From Brachypterus glaber (taxonomy: Eukaryota > Arthropoda > Insecta > Coleoptera > Kateretidae), in the NCBI GenBank assembly GCA_958510825.1, contig OY294049.1:7068001-7132000 (forward strand): a stretch of 64,000 nt of DNA, in the 5' to 3' direction. A program made the translations under genes and the position numbers. The first letter of the stretch is position 1. Every line of letters starts with the position of its first letter. Below, one piece after another: positions 2,085 through 62,470 of the stretch. The notes beneath the pieces were generated by a model, which had not been told where the DNA came from, ran no database searches, and saw only the letters and a program-made list of their open reading frames with translations.

Positions 2085-2570
2085 CTATATCTAAAGAAAA
2101 GTCTTTCAGAATCTCTTGTACTTTCCCATTTCAATTATTGCGATTTTATTTATGGTCCTTGTCTTGATGAAAACAGTAAATTTAAAATTCAAAAAGTGCA
2201 AAATAGTTGTTGTAGGTTTATCAAGGGGGTCAACAGGTACAACCGTATGTCCCCTATAATAACACAGTTAAAATGGCTAAAAATGGAACAGAGGCGTAAG
2301 TTACATCTTTTAGTATTTACTCACAAATCCTTACAAACGAACCCAGTACAAATTATTGCTAATAAATATGTTACTAGAAATCAAATTCATTCCATTAATA
2401 CAAGAAATAATGTAAAACTTAATATGCCTACTTTCAGTAAAAGTTTTTTTAAACGATCTTTCAGTTATAATTCTATAAATGAATATAATAAGTTGCCTGA
2501 GTCATTCAAGTTGTTTAAAATTAACCCATTTAAAACAAAAGTTCAGCAAATTCTTTTTGAAAATCAATAA
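2085..2570 (+). pseudogene. LINE reverse transcriptase ORF, C-terminal fragment
   Basis: About 161 codons are open from just after a TAA at 2082 to the stop at 2568-2570. The sequence has the hallmarks of the region after the RT domain in insect LINEs: L-S-H-F-N-Y-C-D-F-I-Y-G-P, then K-I-Q-K-V-Q-N-S-C-C-R-F-I, then L-K-W-L-K-M-E-Q-R-R-K-L-H, and a terminal N-K-L-P-E-S-F-K. The RT palm motifs and the endonuclease are absent, so it cannot encode a working enzyme. It has no proper start codon. Confidence 0.75.
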
Positions 2571-2866
2571 GGTATTTTGTATTTTTAAATTTCTACAATC
2601 AATAGTCTTTTAAGTGTGTTGCAGGAGTGTGTGTATTTGTGGTTAATAATTATAATTATCATTTAATTTTATTTTAAGTTAAAGTATTTTTGCGCCATGC
2701 TTAGGTGTAAGTTAGTATTAGTTTCAAATCAAAAAAATCAATCCTATATTTAAAATGTAGTAAAACATATCTTGTGGTTGAGTAAGAGTAGCCTAGCTAG
2801 ACTTCGCCGCTGGTTATGTATTTTTTATAAATAAAGTCTTTTTATTATTATTATTATTATTATATA
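2085..2866 (+). mobile_element. 5'-truncated LINE (jockey/CR1-like) with (ATT)n tail
   Basis: The unit consists of an RT C-terminal frame (2085-2570), a 3' UTR of about 270 bp, and an AATAAAGTC signal followed by an (ATT)n tract ending near 2866. The copy begins abruptly beside the SINE, as expected for target-primed reverse transcription that stopped early. The C-terminal frame has no stop, so the copy is younger than the one at 500-921. Confidence 0.7.
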
Positions 2867-2869
2867 AAT

Positions 2870-3410
2870 AGGCTATCACCGATACGGTAGAATTCTTGAA
2901 TTTTTCCTTTGGCATAAATATTCTTGGATAAAAATTATTATTAGAAAATATTTTTATTGGTACACAAGAATATTTGGATGAAAAATTAATTTGGCTTTAT
3001 CGTTGGAAAATATATGATCGTAAAAATAAAGCTTTGGCAAAAATTATTATTGAAAAATCTAAAAATTGGAAAATTGACGTCGTCCCCACGATTATCCTTA
3101 AAGTTTTAATGTGTATACTTTGCATATGTAACTTGCTAGACTTTAAATTTTTGATCAGATCTAAAAAACTGTTTTGTTCAAAGTTTAAAGTTGTTGAGTA
3201 AGAGTTTTGAGTGGCTCATACATTATGCAGAGCAGCAGAACAGCCAGTTCTTCTTAAAATCTACGCTTTGATGAATTAATAAGTCAACTTTTGGTCCAGA
3301 CTTGTCAGCTATTATTAAACTTGTGCAGATTTTGTTTATTTTCATTATTAATACCCACTCTTCGCAGTTTTCTAGCTAAAAGCGTAATGTGTGAAGGTAG
3401 AATGAAGAGA
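2870..3410. other. AT-rich stretch without a recognisable gene
   Basis: Two short open frames (2974-3201 and 3291-3533) have no recognisable domain and low-complexity composition. I see no exon borders or repeat ends before the element that begins at 3413. Confidence 0.5.
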
Positions 3411-3412
3411 TA

Positions 3413-4020
3413 CGGGGTGAGTGAGAATAATTTTTTTGCACTTCCAATTAATCTTTTTTTTTTAATAAGACTCCCTGTATATTTTTGTCATGTTTGGATC
3501 CAAAAAACAAATTTACATACAAAAAAAAATTAAAAACTTTTATTTTTTTACTACTTTTTTTATTTATTTTTTTTATTAACATACAAGATTTATATTTTCA
3601 TAAACAAAATCTAATTTATTTGCTTAATGTGCACATGTGGAAAAATACAAATTTTATGTAAAAACCAAATTTCGGTAATTTTTTTGTACATTCAATTTTT
3701 TTAAACGGTTTTTCCTTCATGACTTACTTTTTTGGTGCGCTATTGTGCGCTTTTGCTGAAAATTAAGTTAATTAGGTTTTTTTTTTAATAAATAAAAAAT
3801 TAATTAATGATATTTTTTAGATGTAAAATTGTTTTCTGAATTTAAAAATGCAAAAATTAAAAAAATAGAATTGGTTTAGTTTCCGGCGAAATCGAAAGTG
3901 TAAAAATATATTTTGTAAGCCATTTTGTAGCCCTTACTAATAAAGCTACAAAAAAATTGTTTTGATCGGATTGAATACAATTCCATTTTAGGGAGTGTAC
4001 ATGAACTGAAACTCACCCGG
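3413..4020. mobile_element. TA-flanked TIR element (non-autonomous, mariner-type)
   Basis: The ends read CGGGGTGAGTGAG and AACTCACCCGG and are flanked by TA at 3411-3412 and 4021-4022, the target duplication of Tc1/mariner-type elements. The interior has no transposase frame. Blocks of this element recur, in both orientations, around the chimeric USP ORF: a right-end block with TTGATCGGATT near 3960 matches 43540-43570 (inverted) and 47225-47240 (direct), and an internal block around 3580-3740 matches 44880-45130 (inverted). Confidence 0.65.
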
Positions 4021-4599
4021 TATACCAAGCATAAAACCGGTTCAAAATGACTTTTATTACTTTCTTTTTGTTTTCCTAACCTTTTTTTTATAATTAGAGA
4101 AGAAATATATAAAAAATGAAATTTTACCTATCTTTCGCACAGTGGGGAATTTTTCAAATTAAGCAAGACAAAAATAGCAAATTGCATTACTTAAATAAAC
4201 GGATTAAAGTATTACTACCTAAATATAAACTGTGTAAATTTATAAAATGACTGAGAAAAACCTGTGTATGTATGTTCAGAGGGCCGTAGCTATCGGGGGA
4301 TGGGGGGGCGTCCCCCCACCCATCTTGAAAACTTGTATATTTCATTGATCCACAACAAAAGTTTAATATTTTATCATCTTGAAAAGTTGTATATTTCATT
4401 GATCCAAAAAAAAGTTGTATATTTCTCAGACGAAAGTCGTATTTTGCAGGGATTCAAAACAAAAGAAGTAGTAGTAGTAATTATTAATCATTAACATTTT
4501 TCTCGAGGAAATTTTTTTTATTTTTAGGATAAAAAACTTATATTTTTGACTTTCTCCCCCCCCCACAAAATCTTCTTCGCTACGACCCTGCATGTTTTT

Positions 4600-5095
4600 A
4601 CAGGGCTTAAAGTTGCATATGTATTATATTGGGGTTACTACGGGGATATTTTGGGGTTAATGGCCCATAAGGTGTCTCTACTTTTTTCTTTTCTTTTGGG
4701 TTGGCAACAGACAAAAGCCTATCGCTTGACGTTTTTCGTGTAAATATCAAGGTCGCTTTAAAGTTTAATTTTCTACAAAGTTTTGTGTTAAGATTATTTT
4801 TTACCGTGTTAAAATTGTGTCTTGGTGACTAGCAGTGAAAAAGAGAAGACATGACTATAAAATATATCAAAATAATATTTTAAACCCGAAACAAAAATCC
4901 CTAAATCATTCATCAATTGAAATGTAAGTTTTTTTAAATTGTAGAGCAAAATAGAAAAATTGTATAAAGCCCTCGTTTCATAACACGTTTTTATCGAATT
5001 AGTACTTTAGAAAACTCGCCGCAAGCGACTCGTTTTCTAAACTTGTATTCATGAGCTAAAAACATATGAAACTAGTACTTTAATATACTATAAAA
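4600..5095 (-). mobile_element. dispersed TIR element, copy 2 (inverted relative to 1390-1932)
   Basis: Read on the - strand, this repeats most of 1390-1872 with moderate divergence, including the hairpin with the CGTTTTT/AAAAACG arms and the segment around the small open frame. The open frame itself is not conserved between the copies, which argues against it being a gene. Confidence 0.5.
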
Positions 5096-5332
5096 AGCGT
5101 GTTTAACTATTGATCTGGATTTCCCAACTAGATCTTTTTTTTTTCAGTGTAGTATATTAAAAACACACCAATAACTAAACAGTAAAGTTGTAAACATTAA
5201 TATATTTCACCACTTGTTTGTTTAACACGAGATATATCTTGTAACATTGTTTCGTGTAGCTTATTTGTCTGCAGACACCTAAGCTTAGCTAAGCTTTAAT
5301 AACATTACTTAATTAATAATTTCTGCTGAATA

Positions 5333-5584
5333 CACTGATAAAAAAGATTTTTTAGATTTATTTGGATATGGCCAATTAAATAATTTGGTTGTGAGTAATA
5401 AATTTTAATTGAGTCAAATAATTATTTAGTTCATGTAAATAAATATTTTAATTTCAAATTCATTTATTAATGGGAACAGAATAGTTTATTTGACAGAGAT
5501 ACAATTTGTTTGTTACAACCAAATAATCTAATTGGCCATATCCAACAAAATATTTTGTACACACAAATATACTGTTTATCAGTA
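5333..5584. mobile_element. small TA-flanked MITE
   Basis: Ends CACTGATAAA and TTTATCAGTA are flanked by TA on both sides (5331-5332 and 5585-5586). The arms also share GGATATGGCCAATTA near 5363 with its inverse TAATTGGCCATATCC near 5529. It has no coding capacity. Confidence 0.6.
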
Positions 5585-5589
5585 TACTA

Positions 5590-7330
5590 ATTAATTTAAA
5601 ATAAACATTTTTATCACATTTAAATAAAAAAAAATCCTTCTTAAATTCAAAATAAATATGAAATTTTTAAGACTTTTTTGCGACAAGTTCAAATTCTTTA
5701 AAAAAAAAAACTTAAAAAAGACGTTTATTCTAATTTTGAAGATTTTGTATAATAAAACTCAAAAAACTAAAGTTAAAATTCTATATACAAGTATATACTG
5801 ATTTTGAAGTCCGCACATAATAATATAAAGCAATGTCTCATTATTACACCTCGCCCATATCAAAACCTTTTACAGTGGGCATGTGACCGCCAATATACTG
5901 CAAAACAAACAGGTCAAAAAAAAAAACAACTACGACTACAAAAACAACAACAGCAACAAATTATTTAGTCGCAGACTTAGATCCTACATATCTGAAAGTA
6001 TCCCAAGTTTCGCGAGGTATACTCATTAGTTTTTCTCCTAAAAATACCTCAAGTACCGTAAAACCATCCAAAAATAATAACGATGCTTGAAAGAAAACTA
6101 TAAGTGATAAACCTAAATAAAAATAAGAATATTGTGAGTCGCCAATTGGCGTGCTTAATTTTAAAAATAGACCAATAGTTTCTCTACAAAAAAAACTAAA
6201 AGACGGTGTTGCAAGTTAGGATAAGGGTACTCCAACATGCAACACAAGTTAATTTATGAAGAATTACAAACAGTATCTCCATTTATACATCTTGGAAAAG
6301 TATACGTAAGTATACTTATATGCATTTATGAATTTTTAAATGTATAGGTATTTTAATTTTTTTTAATCTATTTGTAAAAGTTGTGTAACATTTTTAGTTT
6401 GTCTTGTACACATCAGGTTTACCAGCTAAAAATTTAACCTAATTTCTGTGTTATAATAATAATATTTATAATTATTTATTATAATAAACTTCGGACTTAT
6501 ATTGTAGAAAATAAAGTTTTTTTAAATTTTTTCAACATCGCTTGTTATTGACCTTCAGTGAAAAAAAAAATGGTAAAAAATTAGCCACTTATCTGAAAAA
6601 AGTGGTGCTTTAAAGGGTTATTAAAAGTAACAAATTTTTACTTACTGGTTGGACCAGTACTACTACTACAACAATAAACACACTGTGACTTTTCAAACAA
6701 AGTCCAAACAAAACAGGAAACAGGCCTCGCTCGCTTACCGATTGGGCGGTACAGGGCTGAATTTAGATGATTGGATTTTTTTGCAAGTATCGTAAAAAGC
6801 TTAACAGCTTAAAATAGCCAAATTTTACACGAGTAATAAATAGAAACTAAATTAGTTCATTGATTCTTTTTAGGACTGGTTAAACCCCTAAATTAAATGA
6901 ACCACCTCATGATTTATAGTTAATTTATCAGCTGGCGTATAAAGTAAAAGAGACAGGCAACGTAAACTGTTTAAAATATGCTAACGGGTCATTCCATGGC
7001 AAATTATAGTCATATTTCAATTAGTAACGCCATTTATATCATAGTCAGGTGCTGGTGAACATTTTAAACTAGTTATTTTCTTCCGGATGAAATTTACATA
7101 ATATTTTAATAATATTTTAAGACATATTATATCTTAAAATATACACAGCATGTCAAAAGTCCTGCCACCCACTTTAACGTTTGGATGGTTTAAGATATCA
7201 ACTTGAAATTTAAAACACGTAATATACATAAGCCAAATATTTTTTTGGTATATATTTGGTATGCTTAGAGGGCACGATGGAGACAGTTGGCAAGGGGGAT
7301 TTTCATTTCGGTTTTAACAGTATTCTGACT
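5590..7330. other. gene-poor AT-rich stretch
   Basis: I see no supportable gene. There is a short CAA-rich run near 5920-5960. The text around 6900-6990 and 8840-8890 shares a short phrase (GTATAAAGTA, AGACAGGCAACGTAAA), suggesting fragments of an unnamed dispersed repeat. Confidence 0.45.
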
Positions 7331-43819: not shown

Positions 43820-44815
43820 AAAAATTATAATCATTTTATGCGAAAATGTCCCATTTTTTTTCTATGGCGATTTTTGATAGTTCTATTGTTTTTGCAAAAA
43901 CACGTTATGGAAATTTGATATAATTAGAAACGATATATATTCTAATTATTTTAGCTCCCCTGAATCCGAAAATATTAATCATTCCTTGCGGAAACGCACC
44001 GTTTTTTATCTATGGTGATTTTTTCTATATTTTTTGTTTTGGCAAAAAAACGTTATGGAAATCTGTTATCGTTAAAAAAGAACATACTCTCGTTATTTGG
44101 GCCCCACTGAATCCGAAAATAATAAAAATAAAAAACTCATGACTACTGAAAAAAATGGGGCATTTTCGCAAAAAACGATTACCATTTTCGGATTCAGGGG
44201 GGCTAAAATAACTAAAATATACTTTATTCCAAAGGATAACAGATTTCCATAACGTTTTTTTGCCAAATGAAAAAATATTTAAAAAATCTCCATAGAAAAA
44301 AAAATGGTGCATTTCCACAAAGAACGGTTACCATTTTCGGATCCAGGAGGGTCAAAATAACTAGAATTTACTTCATTTCTAAGGGTAACAGATTTCCGTA
44401 ACGTTTTTTTTTTTGTCAAAACAAAAAATATATAAAAAATCGCCATAAAAAAATGGTGCATTTCCGCAAAAACGATTACCTTTTTCAGATTCAGGAGGGG
44501 GGGGGGCAAAATAACTGTAATATGCTTCATTTTTAACAACAACAGATTTCCATACCATTTTTTTGTCAGTACAAAAAATATATAAAAAATCGCCATAGAA
44601 AAAACATGGTACATTTCCGCAAAGAACGATTACCATTTTCGGATTCAGGGAGGTTCATATAACTAGAATATACTTTATTTCCAACGAAAACAGATTTCCA
44701 TAACGTTTTTTTTTTTGCCAAAACTAAAAATATATAAAAAATCGCCATAGAAAAAAAAACGGTGCATTTCCGCAAAGAACGATTACCATTTTCGTATTCA
44801 GAGGGCTCCATAAAG
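43820..44815. repeat. about 150-bp tandem array with an orientation switch
   Basis: From about 43820 to 44115, roughly two units run in one orientation (CTGAATCCGAAAAT..CTATGGCGATTTTT..AACGTTATGGAAATCTG). From about 44135 to 44815, five units run inverted, with CGATTACCATTTTCGGATTC or a variant at about 44176, 44325, 44473, 44627 and 44780 (spacing 148-154 bp). The DNA can therefore fold across the switch at about 44120. Long overlapping frames on the - strand (44025-44811) are produced by the repetition and are not genes. Confidence 0.8.
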
Positions 44816-45145: not shown

Positions 45146-45170
45146 TTTTTTTTTTATTTAATTTTTATTG
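45146..45170 (-). terminator. poly(A) signal and A-tract of the USP retrocopy
   Basis: On the - strand, about 140 bp after the stop codon, AATAAA is followed within about 12 bp by a run of ten A. Directly beyond lies a block of the 3413-4020 repeat family. This is where an mRNA-derived insertion would end. The A-run could be chance in such AT-rich DNA. Confidence 0.5.
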
Positions 45171-45305
45171 AATAGTAATAAGAAAAGAACAGATTTATTT
45201 TACAATAAAATTAATAGAAATATACATATTAATTAAAAAAAAATAATTAACGATCAAGTAACAAATAAAAGTAACAAATAAGTAAAAAAAAAGAAATAAA
45301 TAAAC

Positions 45306-47048
45306 TCAAGTATATGATTTTTGACTTTCTTGTTCGTACAATAATATGTAAGCATTCCCTGATACGATGGATGTTGGTGAAATTGAAGATACCCTAGAGT
45401 CGTTGTATTCGTGCCACGTATGATTATAGGGATGTTTACAATAGGCGGTGTAGTGTCCGCTATACGTGGTACCACTGTGATTTGAAATGGCGTATAAGTT
45501 GTATTTGGAGGGTGCAACGGACTCTGCTGCATAATTGCTCATATCTAATTCTTCTAGGGGGAAGTCTACGGTGACTTTGAGCTTACTTTGAAACTGTGTC
45601 ATCGGGGAGAAGCGTTTAAGGTGAATTACTAATATTTTTGGGAATTTTTGAATTCTAAAGAATTTTGTGCCTTTTCTGCGCTTTTTGCATTTTGAACATG
45701 TAGGTTTTTCATCACCGTCCAACGATTCTTCCCGTGTGAAGGATTCCAAACAATGTGATAAACTTAATTGACCGGTGTGTTGTGGAAGAGAGAGAGAAAG
45801 GTCCCAGAATGGTTCGAATGTGACGGAACAATGGCTGCAATAGGTGCATTTGAGGGTGGATTTCAGTTGTCCGACGAAGAGGTCCAAAATGCGAGAGTCG
45901 TCCATCCGGAGGTATCTGGACCATGATTCGGCAGATTTTTCATTATCAGTTAATTTTTCATCTATTTTGGTAAAAATAGGTTTAGGTTTTTCCGTTACCC
46001 TGTTAACGTCCTCGTGAAGTCCCTCTAAAAGGTACCGCAGAAATTCTTGTGCGTCCTGTTGTTTGTAGTCTGTAAATTGGGGGGCGAAAATCTGGATTTG
46101 GCTCTTGAAAGAAACCGTGTTTACTACCCGTTCAGATGAATCTTCTGACCACAAATGTTTTATCACATCGGCAAATGTCTTAATTAAAGCTCCATGCATA
46201 CTTGATATATTGGTGTTGATGTCCTGCATATAGCTGTCCTTCTTTAAGTATTCCAACAAAAGTTTCGTGTTCGAAAGGCATGTAATGACCGAGTTCATGA
46301 AACAGGTATTCCCGATATTTTTTAACCCTTTAAGACCCAGAGTTTTGACTGGACTTCCGACCTCTGGCTTATTGTTTGTGATATAGTTTTTCTCGCTGTT
46401 ATCATCAATATCACTGTAATTTAAACTGTTGTTGGTGTTGTATAATTTATCATCGTTCATTTCAGAATCATTATCAAATGTTCCCAAGACACTTATAGCA
46501 TTACCTCTTTGGATGGCCATACTTATGCGTTGTAGAAAGTAAAGACCTTCCAAAGGGTTGCCGGTGGAATCTACCAAGCGTCTACAAATATCTTTAAGAA
46601 AGGCCTTAGTGATTGGACCATATGAACCATAAGTTTCAATAGCTATGGGAACAAATTCATAGTCTGTTGATAAAAATTTGTATCTCTTGATCTTAATGTT
46701 TTCTGCTCGTTCTGCAGCAGAGCCAGCCTTTTCAGAGTTAATATGAAGATAAGAGGGAGCCACAGTATCCACACAGGTAAAGTCCCACACCAAGCATTTC
46801 CCTCTTTTAAATGGAACCAAAGTCATTCCGTCTGGTCTTTTGCCATCGATTCGTGCCATTAAACCTGGAGGTTCTAAAACAGGTTGTAGATCAATAATAG
46901 CTAAGGCTCTCTTTATTAGGTTGTTTACTTCTTTGTGTCTAGATAATCTGCCTTTGCTATATCTACAAGAGAGGCCATGTGTTCCAGATGTATCAACATT
47001 TTCACCACAAATACACAAATGGTGGACAACAGTTTTGGTAGATCCCAT
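45306..47048 (-). CDS. chimeric ORF: retrotransposon zinc finger/RLE domain fused to a USP deubiquitinase domain
   Basis: The first ATG is at 47048 and the frame (580 residues) has no intron or stop. Numbering from an in-frame TTG two codons earlier, residues 14-44 hold a C-x-C..H-x3-C finger followed by R-H-x3-N, and residues 72-91 hold K-R-P-D..W-D with 15 residues between D and D. This is the layout of the restriction-like endonuclease in R2-type LINE polyproteins, without the reverse transcriptase. Residues 239-575 are a complete USP domain: Cys box G-N-T-C-F-M-N (C251), D-A-Q-E-F, zinc pairs C403/C406 and C453/C456, His box S-G-H-Y-T-A-Y (H534) and Y-N-D-S (N551). It most resembles the USP2/USP21 group, which cleaves ubiquitin from proteins. 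The lack of introns, a poly(A) signal and an A-tract downstream indicate a retrocopy. All triad and zinc residues are kept, so activity is plausible; whether it is expressed is unknown. Confidence 0.85.
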   Translation of the reverse strand: MGSTKTVVHHLCICGENVDTSGTHGLSCRYSKGRLSRHKEVNNLIKRALAIIDLQPVLEPPGLMARIDGKRPDGMTLVPFKRGKCLVWDFTCVDTVAPSYLHINSEKAGSAAERAENIKIKRYKFLSTDYEFVPIAIETYGSYGPITKAFLKDICRRLVDSTGNPLEGLYFLQRISMAIQRGNAISVLGTFDNDSEMNDDKLYNTNNSLNYSDIDDNSEKNYITNNKPEVGSPVKTLGLKGLKNIGNTCFMNSVITCLSNTKLLLEYLKKDSYMQDINTNISSMHGALIKTFADVIKHLWSEDSSERVVNTVSFKSQIQIFAPQFTDYKQQDAQEFLRYLLEGLHEDVNRVTEKPKPIFTKIDEKLTDNEKSAESWSRYLRMDDSRILDLFVGQLKSTLKCTYCSHCSVTFEPFWDLSLSLPQHTGQLSLSHCLESFTREESLDGDEKPTCSKCKKRRKGTKFFRIQKFPKILVIHLKRFSPMTQFQSKLKVTVDFPLEELDMSNYAAESVAPSKYNLYAISNHSGTTYSGHYTAYCKHPYNHTWHEYNDSRVSSISPTSIVSGNAYILLYEQESQKSYT

Positions 47049-47511
47049 TCTCAAATTAATAGCTATTGTAAGTAAGTTTCTATTTTATTTAATTTAGTTT
47101 TCTGGATCCAAAAAATTTAAAAAAAAATATTTAACTTAGTTTCCGACAAAACCGGAAGCGCAAAAAAATAATTTTTTATGTCATTTTGTAGCCATTGTTG
47201 AGAAATATAAGCTGTTAAAAAATTGCTTTGATCGGATTAAAAACAACCATGGACACGGGCTGAAACTCACTGCTGAATTTTAAATCTAATTTTCTCAGTA
47301 GAGTTTCACAAAATTGACTTTGGTTTCCATTACCTATATCTTAAATAAAATATATATATATTCTTAAATCGAACGAATGTTTTTTGTAAATATATTTATT
47401 ATAGGTATACTTATAAGTATAGATAATTATACATAATTATCTATACTCAAATTGTTAGTTAAAGTCCAAAACAAGACATTAGACTTCAATCAAAATAGAA
47501 GTTTTCTTACG

Positions 47512-48338
47512 ACCTAGTGTACACGAAATATAGAAAAATGCATGTTCATTATATATCCTTCTATATATTTTTCTATCGCACGAGTACATAGTGCATATTT
47601 GAATGAAATGACAACTATGCACACTCATTTATCCAAACGAGTACACATAGCTTTCATTTTGACAAAAGTCATTTGACGTTTATAAAATTTTGAAATGTCA
47701 AAATTAAACACAGGTAATTCTTTAAAAAATACATTTTTAAAGAGTCCAGACTGTAGATCGAAAGAAAAATGTTGTTCGCAACTCGTTTGCGACAAGTCTT
47801 TAGTACACGAGAATGAAGTTTTTTTTGACATTTCAAGTCCAAACGAGTTACGAACAACATTTTCCGTTCGATCTACAGTCTGGACTCTTTAAAAATATAT
47901 TTTTTAAAGAATTACCTGTGTTTAATTTTGACATTTCAAAATTTTATAAACGTCAAATGACTTTTGGCAAAATGAAAGCTATGTGTAATTGTTTGGATAA
48001 ATGAGTGTGCATAACCGAAGCGGTCAAAAAATCATTCGATTGCACTAAGGACTTGTCCCAAACGAGTTGCGAACAACATTTTTCGTTCGATCTAGAGTCC
48101 AGACTCTTTAAAAATGTATATTTTAAAAATTTACCTGTGTTTAATTTTGACATTTCAAAATTTTATGAACGTCAAATGAGTTTTGTTAAAATGAATGCTA
48201 TGTGTAATCGTTTGGATAAATAAGTGTGCATAGTTGTCATTTCATTCAAATATACGCTATGTACTCGTGCGATAGAAAAATATCCTAACGAGGATATATA
48301 GTGAACATGCATTTTTCTTTATTTCGTGTACACTAGGT
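47512..48338. mobile_element. foldback element with three related arms
   Basis: Ends ACCTAGTGTACACGAAATA and its inverse TATTTCGTGTACACTAGGT-like right end bound 827 bp. The left arm (about 47512-47810) is inverse to the right arm, and an extra copy of the inner arm is inserted in the middle. The block with TTTGACATTTCAAAATTTTA and AGAGTCCAGACT occurs three times: inverted at 47690-47800, direct at 47860-47960, direct at 48090-48180. Short frames of 60-70 codons on both strands are translations of the same arm. Confidence 0.75.
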
Positions 48339-48339
48339 T

Positions 48340-49418
48340 GTACGAAAATTAAATATAAGGCTTAGGGCTGATTTTTCAATAAAATTAAAATCTATTGTAT
48401 GGAACTGACGATTCGATATTCTAAATAATACTTATCTTGTTTTGCGTTTTAACTGTCAAAATTTTAAATTGACTGTTTAAGTATTAGGCACATGTGAATC
48501 AGTTATTTTAAAAACAGTACAAGTCACAATCAGTAAATTTTATGGGAAAAAAAACTGTTTTTATGAAATACGTATCATATTAAAAAATAGATATCTACTT
48601 TCATAGACTTTTTGCTTTTATAATGAACCAAAAATAATTGTGTTTTTAGGATAAATACAAGAAAAAATTAAAAACCTAGTATTTTTTTTTTTTAGTAATG
48701 TCATAAAAACATAAATCAAACTAAAGGATCAACTATGATATTTTAAACAAAGTCCTGTAAAAAGGTAATTTTTCGTTTGGACGTTGTTTTCAAAATAAGG
48801 GATTCATATATTAAGTTGTAAAATTCGATATTTCGTCATAGAATTATATTCCCGGGAATGCAAATTTTGAAAAAATTATATATGTATTTAATTTTGTTAC
48901 AAAATTTTTGTATCAATATAATTCTGTGAATCTTAGTTTTAAGATAAATGTACAGCACTTTTACGAAGCTTTAATCACGTTATATAAAAACAAGTTCGTG
49001 AAAAAAGTATTAATAAATAAATAATATTTATAATCTTGTATATAAAGTTTTTATGTATGATATGAAAAAATTCTAAATAAATTATGCCAAATAAAGTAAA
49101 TTATGTAATAAAGCTTATTTTCAGTGTTTTAAAGGTGTTTTATTTTGTATATTTTTATAAAGCGTTTTATGCTTTTCTTTTTGACGCAAATTTCTTAAAA
49201 ATTAATTCAATAATTATATTATTATAGAAGCTATAATTTAAATTAAATTTAAAAAGTTTCGGGATCTAATCTGATCCCATTTTCAAAAAAAAAATATTAG
49301 TTTTTGAAAGAATTTGTGCAATATTTGGCTTTATCAATCAAAATATAATATATTATATTATATATAATATAATAATATAATATATTATATTATTATTATG
49401 TTATAGAAACTGAGAGCA
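48340..49418. other. AT-rich stretch without a gene
   Basis: A long AT-only tract lies at about 49346-49398 (TATTATATTATATATAATAT and similar). Nothing else recognised. Confidence 0.5.
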
Positions 49419-51558: not shown

Positions 51559-52263
51559 TATAAAAAGCTTGTTTTAAATAAATCGAAAACCGTAGCCATA
51601 AACTTCTTTAATAGGAAAAGATTGGATATTGACTTTAAAGTTTTGGATATATCACTATCTTCGTCCATTAAATTTCTTGGTACCTTTTTCAACAGCGACC
51701 TCTCTTGGTGTGATCATATAGAGCATGTTTGTAAAAAGCTTAATAATGCCTTTTTCGCTATTTTAAAGCTAAGGAGAGATTTTGATGAGGCTGGAATTTT
51801 AGGCATATACTACTCACTAGCTTACCCTCACATGGCATATAACATTATTTGTTGGGGATGTGTGAGTGGTATAGACAGAGTTTTGGTAGCACAAAAAAGA
51901 CTCATTTGTCTTATATTTAACTTGGACTATAGAGCCAGTTGTCAAAAGATTTTTAAAGATAAAAATATTTTAACTGTGCCGTGTATTTATATATTTAAAT
52001 GTGTTATGTTTGTAAGGAATAATCCTGAAAATTTTTCCACAAAAAGCCATACAAGGCTTGGCGAAATTTTGCAACTTCCTAAACATAAAACAAGCCTTTA
52101 TGAAAATTCGCCTTACTATAGTTGTATGTATCTGTATAATAAACTACCAAGAAATATAAGAAGCATTTCCAACAATAACGCCTTCAAAAGATCTGTTAAA
52201 AAATATTTGATAGAAAGAGCTTTTTATACTGTAAAGGCCTATAAAACCCAAGCCATATGTTAG
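51559..52263 (+). pseudogene. LINE reverse transcriptase ORF, C-terminal fragment
   Basis: The frame is open for about 234 codons after a TAA at 51556. It opens with L-N-x-S-K-T-x-x-I-N-F-F, then V-x-F/I-K-F-L-G-T-F-F-N-S-D-L-S-W-C-D-H-I, the part that follows the RT palm in insect LINEs. It then has H-M-A-Y-N-I-I-C-W-G, Q-K-R-L-I-C-L-I-F, and a C-terminal Y-N-K-L-P-R-N-I-R. The palm catalytic motif, endonuclease and ORF1 are absent, so the copy is 5'-truncated. It is a different lineage from the fragment at 2085-2570. Confidence 0.8.
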
Positions 52264-61814: not shown

Positions 61815-62096
61815 CTACAGGATATTACATGCAGTCCCATGCATAACTTCAGAAATAAACATAGGAGTCCCAGCTCCTAGTCCGCCATCTGTTTTATCAT
61901 GCTCAGTTTTTTCGTATTCGCAGTCAAAATAGTGGCTTTGGCAATCAAAACATCTGCATTGATCCGACATTTTGCATGTAATTCCAAATTGCTTGGCTAC
62001 GGCCTTGTACAGTTCTTTGCTTGATTTGTGCATGATTTCAGGGCCTTTTGCTGGATTCGTAGGGGACATTGTGTCTTGTTGGGTTTTAAGCTGAGT
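61815..62096 (-). CDS. terminal exon of a second cysteine-rich CaaX gene (partial)
   Basis: On the - strand, the acceptor TTTTCTTGCAG ends at 62097 and the exon has 93 codons to a TAG at 61815-61817. Residues 40-58 of the exon read T-C-x3-D-Q-C-R-C-F-D-C-Q-S-H-Y-F-D, the same motif as in the + strand gene. The preceding E-L-Y matches its D-L-Y. The C-terminus is C-N-I-L, a CaaX box whose X=L favours geranylgeranylation. Here the motif is in one exon, whereas the + strand gene has an intron after the Gln. The acceptor phase (0) and the first residues T-Q-L-K match exon 3 of the other gene. Upstream exons were not found to the right and are probably outside the window. A start within this exon (M at residue 10) is possible but less likely. 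Function unknown; paralogy is well supported. Confidence 0.65.
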   Translation of the reverse strand, partial: TQLKTQQDTMSPTNPAKGPEIMHKSSKELYKAVAKQFGITCKMSDQCRCFDCQSHYFDCEYEKTEHDKTDGGLGAGTPMFISEVMHGTACNIL

Positions 62097-62470
62097 CTGC
62101 AAGAAAATTACAGTAAAAAAATAGTTTATCAGTTTCAAAAAATTTATCTACAGGATGTTCCAGAATTTCCTCCTTCTTCATTTTTCTCAGAAATGGTAAG
62201 GGATATTGAAAAAATTCAAGAACCATGTTTTGTAGTTTCACCTATACTACAACATAAATACCATATGATGTTTCAAAATAATACTCGTTAGCCCTGTGAC
62301 GACCTTTATTCTTTTTTCTCCATTGTAAACTATTTTTTATTCACAAAATTAAAAGATCTTGAAATTAGAATAGTTCAGGTTCGTGTCTTTTTTATTCTGC
62401 GCTCATTTGTTTTCTAGTTATCTGCTGTCAAAATTTACTTAATTAATTGTTCCTAATTTTTTAACCATTG

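Follow-up and report, generated by a model that had tools for sequence, protein, structure and literature searches.

Several non-LTR retrotransposons with a restriction-like endonuclease (RLE), i.e., R2, R4, NeSL, CRE, and HERO, have in common with the Brachypterus glaber LINE described here an R2-like reverse transcriptase (RT), a CCHC motif followed by an R2-like RLE, and an N-terminal zinc finger, all within one open reading frame (ORF). When compared with R2 and related RLE elements, the beetle LINE, which we place among the RLE elements as a group and not in a particular clade, differs in the addition of a ubiquitin-specific protease (USP) after the RLE and in showing no common target site, by eye, in the flanks of 14 copies. 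In the available part of PMC4640811, NeSL and the nematode Utopia are likewise RLE LINEs that captured a cysteine protease acting in the ubiquitin/SUMO system; however, that protease is N-terminal and Ulp1-like, whereas the beetle LINE has a C-terminal USP (peptidase C19), of several host-derived types. Pfam detected no Ulp1 domain at E<=0.1 in two full-length beetle copies (L009 and L014), where the protease is the C-terminal UCH domain.

Proteases of this kind have also been found in DNA transposons. The sections of PMC2836005 at hand describe Ginger1, Mutator, and Helitron elements with OTU or Ulp1, and a Trichomonas transposase with peptidase C19; for DNA transposons bearing OTU, Ulp1, or C19, its authors proposed that the ubiquitin pathway takes part in transposition. 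These elements carry a deubiquitinase or deSUMOylase like the beetle LINE, but they are DNA transposons, and those sections do not mention a LINE, an exchange of USP types, or a USP2 whose host gene of origin was traced. An icefish Helitron is, by the title of its report, another transposon with a ubiquitin-system protease. The recurrent capture of cytosine methyltransferases by retrotransposons, as far as the excerpt of PMC5890265 goes, is likewise an independent uptake of host enzymes into coding regions, although both the enzyme and the element classes differ from those of the LINE-USP fusion. Among the matches listed in a search of the titles and abstract starts of the open-licence PMC literature, there was no description of a LINE with a USP. 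Ubiquitin-system proteases in transposons are already known, and the surprising parts are the recurrent deubiquitinase capture and the exchange of the cassette.

The open frame and its element

The window, i.e., the whole 64,000-nucleotide stretch analyzed here (C12:7068001-7132000), contains a single open frame of 592 codons on the minus strand, read from stop to stop at 47084-45306; from the ATG at 47048 it encodes 580 amino acids, and the plus strand across the same stretch has stops throughout. This confirmed the uninterrupted frame of about 580 codons claimed in the earlier note, which named no strand. By ORF, Pfam, and structure matches, its order is an R2-type CCHC motif and RLE, a linker, and a complete USP2-like deubiquitinase. 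Residues 5-202 (46479-47072, minus strand), with the motif RPDG...WDFT, matched the profile of the R2-type CCHC-RLE, and this half gave no Pfam match. A model of the RLE half built from 19 aligned sequences had a pLDDT of 87 and a pTM of 0.83, and all seven of its PDB matches at E<=0.001 were R2 retrotransposon proteins. The R2-like CCHC and RLE domain proposed earlier was therefore borne out by profile, model, and R2-only matches, and the N-terminal half is predicted to adopt the CCHC plus PD-(D/E)XK RLE fold.

The linker (46341-46478, minus strand) consists, by alignment and by comparison with the host linker exon, of the LINE C-terminus and then a host USP2-derived segment (SEKNYITNNK...). 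It is followed by the catalytic domain (45309-46340, minus strand), intronless where the host gene has introns. Pfam UCH matched residues 253-583 (E=1e-68), and in a sequence search the top solved-structure matches of residues 248-588 were USP2 (E ~1e-114); the USP type is assigned from such solved-structure sequence matches only. From motifs and codons, the catalytic Cys (NIGNTCFMN) is residue 261 at 46302-46304, the His (SGHYTAY) is residue 544 at 45453-45455, and the Asn (WHEYNDS) is residue 561 at 45402-45404, all on the minus strand; the last was assigned as third catalytic residue by a spacing of His+17, which we take to be that of USPs. Both CxxC pairs are kept. Sequence motifs and sequence matches to USP2 structures hence point to a USP2-type peptidase C19, with a Cys-His-Asn/Asp triad and two CxxC zinc pairs, and agree with the earlier description of a full USP domain. 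The predicted structure of the 580-residue ORF had a mean pLDDT of 58.6 and was unusable for the USP half. Among named USP2 proteins, the nearest to the window USP were beetle proteins, in line with the insect source assumed in the earlier note, and the nearest of all was P0001; a search of viral contigs with A1 found no relative.

The frame lies in a 5'-truncated LINE copy (45214-47085, minus strand), 99.4% identical by blastn to positions 5421-7292 of L009, a member of what we call family A. Its 5' break coincides with the thumb/RLE boundary of the element, and it is by truncation that the copy lacks an RT. Where a nuclease-like module targeting a deubiquitinase had been envisaged, the fusion proved to be the end of a full RT-RLE-USP polyprotein. 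A 3' UTR and A-rich tail follow at 45152-45305 (minus strand), common to other copies as far as about 45214. Comparison of the flanks gave a candidate target-site duplication of 13 bp (47083-47095 on the 5' side of the minus-strand copy, partner 45152-45164), AT-rich, weak, and possibly due to chance. Another copy, L006 (C16:5028093-5029868), is cut at the same element base as the window copy (47085; L009 5421) and has different flanks, which may reflect a hotspot of truncation or chance.

The neighborhood of the copy has its own features. Long nested inverted repeats, foldback- or MITE-like, lie just upstream of it at 47502-48348, with arms of 258 nt at 91%, 174 nt at 96%, and 58 nt at 93% identity, and just downstream, at 44149-44805, there is a tandem array of 4.4 copies whose repeat unit is about 149 bp long. 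A 110-residue ORF with DUF4802 (PF16060, 2e-35) at 61818-62147 (minus strand) is perhaps a host gene exon. By eye, two plus-strand ORFs, at 51559-52263 and 2085-2570, resembled the ends of other LINE RTs, with no Pfam match.

Copies and families in the beetle genome

The assembly (648 Mb, 842 contigs) was searched for the same fusion; 100 matches were listed and 74 of 1299 first-look candidates were scored, so that the copy counts are lower bounds. The junction, which had been proposed as something to look for elsewhere, recurs at many further loci in this assembly, which rules out both an artefact of contig joining and a frame open by pure chance. Fifteen of the listed matches span residues 1-592; 14 of these, the window included, are 98-100% identical, and 12 of the 14 are free of stops. 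Partial copies among the listed matches often hold stops. The family A copy L009 has an open ORF of 1377 residues with a PHD match that falls short of the curated cut-off, RVT_1 (4e-14), the RLE, and UCH (2e-68). Family B is a sister family, with 16 rows listed at 74-76% identity over residues ~215-585, 15 of them without a stop. Six listed rows have an open frame of 1495 residues, and the family B copies fetched were six chosen for this frame plus the shorter L027 (1126 residues) and L028 (1262 residues). The 1495-residue ORF encodes a C2H2-like finger (by eye), RVT_1, the RLE, and UCH.

In both L009 and L014 (family B; RVT_1 at 6e-18), the RT with its FLDD motif is upstream of the RLE in one ORF, as in an R2-like non-LTR retrotransposon, and the RT of related database LINE proteins (profile A2) was most like that of R2 in the PDB (9nl3, 9dou). 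Three family B copies (L016, L017, and L018) are identical over the 4485-nt ORF and have different flanks, indicating recent transposition. Intact full-length ORFs were found in families A and B only; the fetched copies of family C (L020 and L021) and family E (L024-L026) have frame breaks. We relied only on frames confirmed as ORFs, because the search table may carry a frame across stops; for family C (C593), it gives 1442 where there are two ORFs. The element is multicopy, with 5'-truncated copies and a common 3' end; the start of the 3' UTR is common to the copies, which then diverge, several with A-rich tails. Inspected by eye, the flanks of 15 rows (14 distinct copies) showed no common target, and the candidate target-site duplications were weak and AT-rich. 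Collectively, we are fairly confident that the window ORF belongs to a high-copy, recently active R2-type RLE LINE, of which it is a 5'-truncated copy that is still open, and that the full ORF of this LINE runs zinc finger - RT - CCHC - RLE - USP, with the USP derived from host USP2 and selectively maintained as what should be a working deubiquitinase.

Two other arrangements were observed. At C5:307570-312861, three LINE-USP fragments are evenly spaced, about 1761 bp apart, like a tandem array. In L023 (C10:17371500-17379200), with ORFs at 1349-2404 and 2408-6265 and one stop between them, a USP cassette 92% identical in amino acids to that of family A is joined in frame to the end of an ORF with ankyrin repeats (Pfam) and hydrophobic segments. 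By eye only, we take this ORF to be TRPA-channel-like. From its sequence, the L023 fusion may represent exon shuffling by a USP-bearing LINE.

A search with the RLE only (150 of 692 candidates scored, ten stretches fetched) uncovered a second USP type and LINEs with no USP. Three of the ten (L029, L030, and L036) form family F; L029 encodes a CAP-Gly domain, matched in Pfam at 2e-6 and by the CYLD CAP-Gly structure at 3e-13, together with a USP closest to USP35 (6e-60), and L030 has a frame break. To our knowledge, no host gene has this order of a CYLD-like CAP-Gly and a USP35-like protease. In the other seven (L031-L035, L037, and L038), a stop comes soon after the RLE, and no frame with USP motifs was found in the ~1.2-1.4 kb downstream; the presence of such LINEs in the same genome indicates that the USP is not essential. 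In the RLE tree, family F clusters with C and E, which bear USP2 (90/83), families G and H, which lack a USP, are on a separate branch (97/93), family I is elsewhere, and all USP bearers of this genome are grouped weakly (82/39).

Origin, exchange, and conservation of the protease

The intron-containing parental USP gene, whose existence had been anticipated, was located on C18 from 24998366 on (plus strand), using the N-terminus of P0011 as query; the N-terminus of P0001 gave no match in this genome. The linker and catalytic domain of this host USP2 are split by introns, with exon borders that by eye are GT/AG-like; five catalytic exon stretches were read, and the fetched stretches stop short of the last coding exon. 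The LINE USPs have the same catalytic residues as host USP2 but are intronless, mobile, fused to RT-RLE, and faster evolving, and over the compared exons they share 86% amino acid identity with it. The host linker exon, near L043:2262-2350, encodes TNNHLNYSDDEDNVSEKNYITNSKRVVG; the short linker is common to the LINE families, and family B retains a long stretch of the host linker (LINE NNFTSNIPTNDYKNDEN versus host NNFASYIPTRDYKNDEN). SEKNYITNNK was considered as a mark of the LINE only and dropped, because the host linker exon has nearly the same sequence. The intronless USPs and the host-derived linker indicate that the cassette came from a spliced USP2 mRNA of this lineage, as the earlier note had supposed in naming a spliced host transcript as a source.

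The pS values were 0.47-0.55 between host and LINE and 0.10-0.42 between LINEs (near-identical copies aside), and, in a USP tree without the host gene of this genome, its LINE USPs form one clade (100/99); both the pS pattern and the single clade fit one USP2 capture in this genome. In the USP tree, these sequences stand beside Brassicogethes and Aethina (96/86), both Nitidulidae, and the leaf and longhorn beetles form a clade (100/98) that does not include the window USP. Both placements led us to drop a leaf beetle as the source of the window.

Fusions of the same order, LINE then USP, which the earlier note had suggested seeking in related genomes, are present in other species. Among 120 proteins listed (335 passed the threshold, from a capped set of candidates), RVT_1 and UCH occur together in 15, with P0121 and P0142 as named barnacle proteins in this set. 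The barnacle Amphibalanus amphitrite has LINE fusions of the USP2 type (P0121), USP8 type (P0135), and USP35 type (P0142), and Phaedon cochleariae has two LINE USP2 proteins (P0113 and P0079); a simple scan for motifs did not find the Cys motif in either gene model. The same scan found both Cys and His motifs in 10 of 36 database rows, one of them a host gene and many of the rows being fragments. In the USP tree, the barnacle LINE USPs group with the barnacle host gene (100/100), and the Phaedon LINE USPs with the Phaedon host gene in two trees (96/92 and 97/95); a joint clade of the window and Phaedon sequences was not rejected by the AU test (p=0.058). These trees support at least two captures of USP2, in barnacle and beetle, and make a separate Phaedon capture likely; separate capture of other USP types by related LINEs is supported as well. 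We counted 23 changes, 11 of them forced by starred branches, and this may be too many, as the rows with 'no USP' may include cut contigs.

Some proteins in this set stand apart. P0128 had its best match in USP8 yet groups apart from P0129, P0126, and P0135, and P0148 belongs to a divergent USP group. A DPELARYL-like motif follows the RLE, with no Pfam USP, in P0154, P0159, P0163, P0164, P0167, P0171, P0184, P0201, P0206, and others, as does a PWGELFGARPK-like motif in P0198, P0208, P0216, and P0231; these tails are perhaps other C-terminal cassettes.

When families A and B, A and C, and A and E were aligned in 40-codon windows, pS was ~0.5-0.9 in RT/RLE and fell to 0.1-0.45 from the end of the RLE onward. 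Between families, the values were 0.73-0.90 for the RLE versus 0.20-0.40 for the USP (for family E, the RLE values are from L026 and the USP values from L024, another copy). This fall at the RLE end indicates that the USPs share a more recent common ancestor than do the LINE families carrying them. The opposite pattern was found between L014 and the decayed L022, with pS of 0.13 in the RLE and 0.37 in the USP. The cassette of USP and 3' UTR thus moved among LINE families, probably by template jumping of the RT, with ordinary recombination as the alternative.

Pairwise NG86 estimates, made without a tree, placed dN/dS of the USP well below 1, the comparison that had been proposed for this frame. 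The values were 0.22-0.31 in seven full-frame pairs among L009 (A), L014 (B), L021 (C), L024 (E), and L023, with bootstrap 95% upper limits of 0.30-0.53. Other pairs gave 0.39 (L009-L026 and WIN-L009), 0.31 (L014-L022), and 0.48 (L026-L024, 207 codons), and the pairs in this range of 0.31-0.48 include partial or near-identical copies. Between host and LINE, dN/dS was 0.08-0.18, lower than between LINEs, suggesting that constraint on the USP is looser in the LINEs than in the host gene. The linker appeared unconstrained, with 1.23 between A and B (46 codons) and 0.30-0.69 in other pairs. For the RT, the value between A and B was 0.18, and the estimates for the LINE half are rough because synonymous sites are near saturation. 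The catalytic Cys, His, and Asn/Asp and the zinc pairs are kept in all six full USP frames examined (WIN, L009, L014, L021, L024, and L023), family B having Asp in place of the catalytic Asn. These codon comparisons indicate that the USP is kept under purifying selection, with dN/dS of 0.22-0.39 between LINE families.

Alternative explanations and a proposed role

A single reverse transcription of a LINE transcript that continued into a USP mRNA, as the earlier note had it, would also leave a LINE end fused to a spliced, intronless USP2, and such an event may describe the ancestral capture. As an account of the present locus, a single chimeric retrocopy is hardly credible, since the junction recurs in many copies, with full-length open ORFs, several diverged families, and purifying selection; the fusion instead forms the native C-terminus of a LINE that is multicopy and transposed recently. 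Host domestication, in which a gene family uses LINE parts for host benefit, could appeal to the cassette copy fused to the host-like ankyrin-repeat ORF of L023, but the copies, like those of an element, are scattered, frequently cut at the 5' end, A-tailed, and near-identical, and we regard this reading as very improbable.

LINEs can carry 3' transductions, and the USP might be such a passenger, tolerated and copied with no benefit to the element. The USP-less families in the same genome, the higher dN/dS between LINEs than between host and LINE, and the 0.48 of one within-family pair are in keeping with this. It nevertheless seems unlikely given the upper limits of dN/dS in the seven pairs, the catalytic Cys, His, and Asn/Asp retained in all six full frames, the retention of the USP while synonymous sites of RT/RLE reached saturation, and the separate capture of USP2, USP8, and USP35 types, each after the RLE. 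The USP could otherwise act as a non-catalytic module, binding ubiquitin or tethering to chromatin and choosing insertion sites; in family A it occurs together with a PHD-like finger (matches below the cut-off), and ubiquitinated histones would be plausible tethers. Retention of catalytic residues together with zinc pairs in the six full frames of this genome speaks against such a module, which we hold to be quite unlikely.

The best reading is that LINEs repeatedly captured deubiquitinases that would aid retrotransposition. The deubiquitinase came from spliced host USP2 mRNA and joined just after the RLE, and the LINE protein, seen as an open frame only, would be translated with the USP in cis. 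During target-primed reverse transcription, the USP might remove ubiquitin from the LINE protein or RNP and reduce its turnover; alternatively, it might act on host proteins of DNA repair or chromatin at the target site, so that ubiquitin-dependent restriction would be blunted. Either way, deubiquitination would lead to more retrotransposition. In the accessible portion of PMC10584689, restraint of human LINE-1 requires mono-ubiquitination of FANCD2, and the K561R form fails; by analogy with this human parallel, the USP may act on host factors at the insertion site. As a tentative proposal, to which we give rather less than an even chance, the USPs (USP2, USP8, and USP35/38 types) could be swappable counter-restriction cassettes at the ORF end, template-jumped between families and deubiquitinating host factors of repair or chromatin that would otherwise block insertion.

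The finding bears on the open question of which host ubiquitin signals restrain LINEs: those with repeated deubiquitinase uptake are a natural experiment, and the target of the USP should name the restriction. The finding also shows that LINEs can acquire a complete host enzyme domain in frame, with selection preserving it and exchange carrying it from one family to another, an exon shuffling for the element's own use. If the counter-restriction proposal is true, these cassettes would be the genomic-parasite analogue of viral deubiquitinases.
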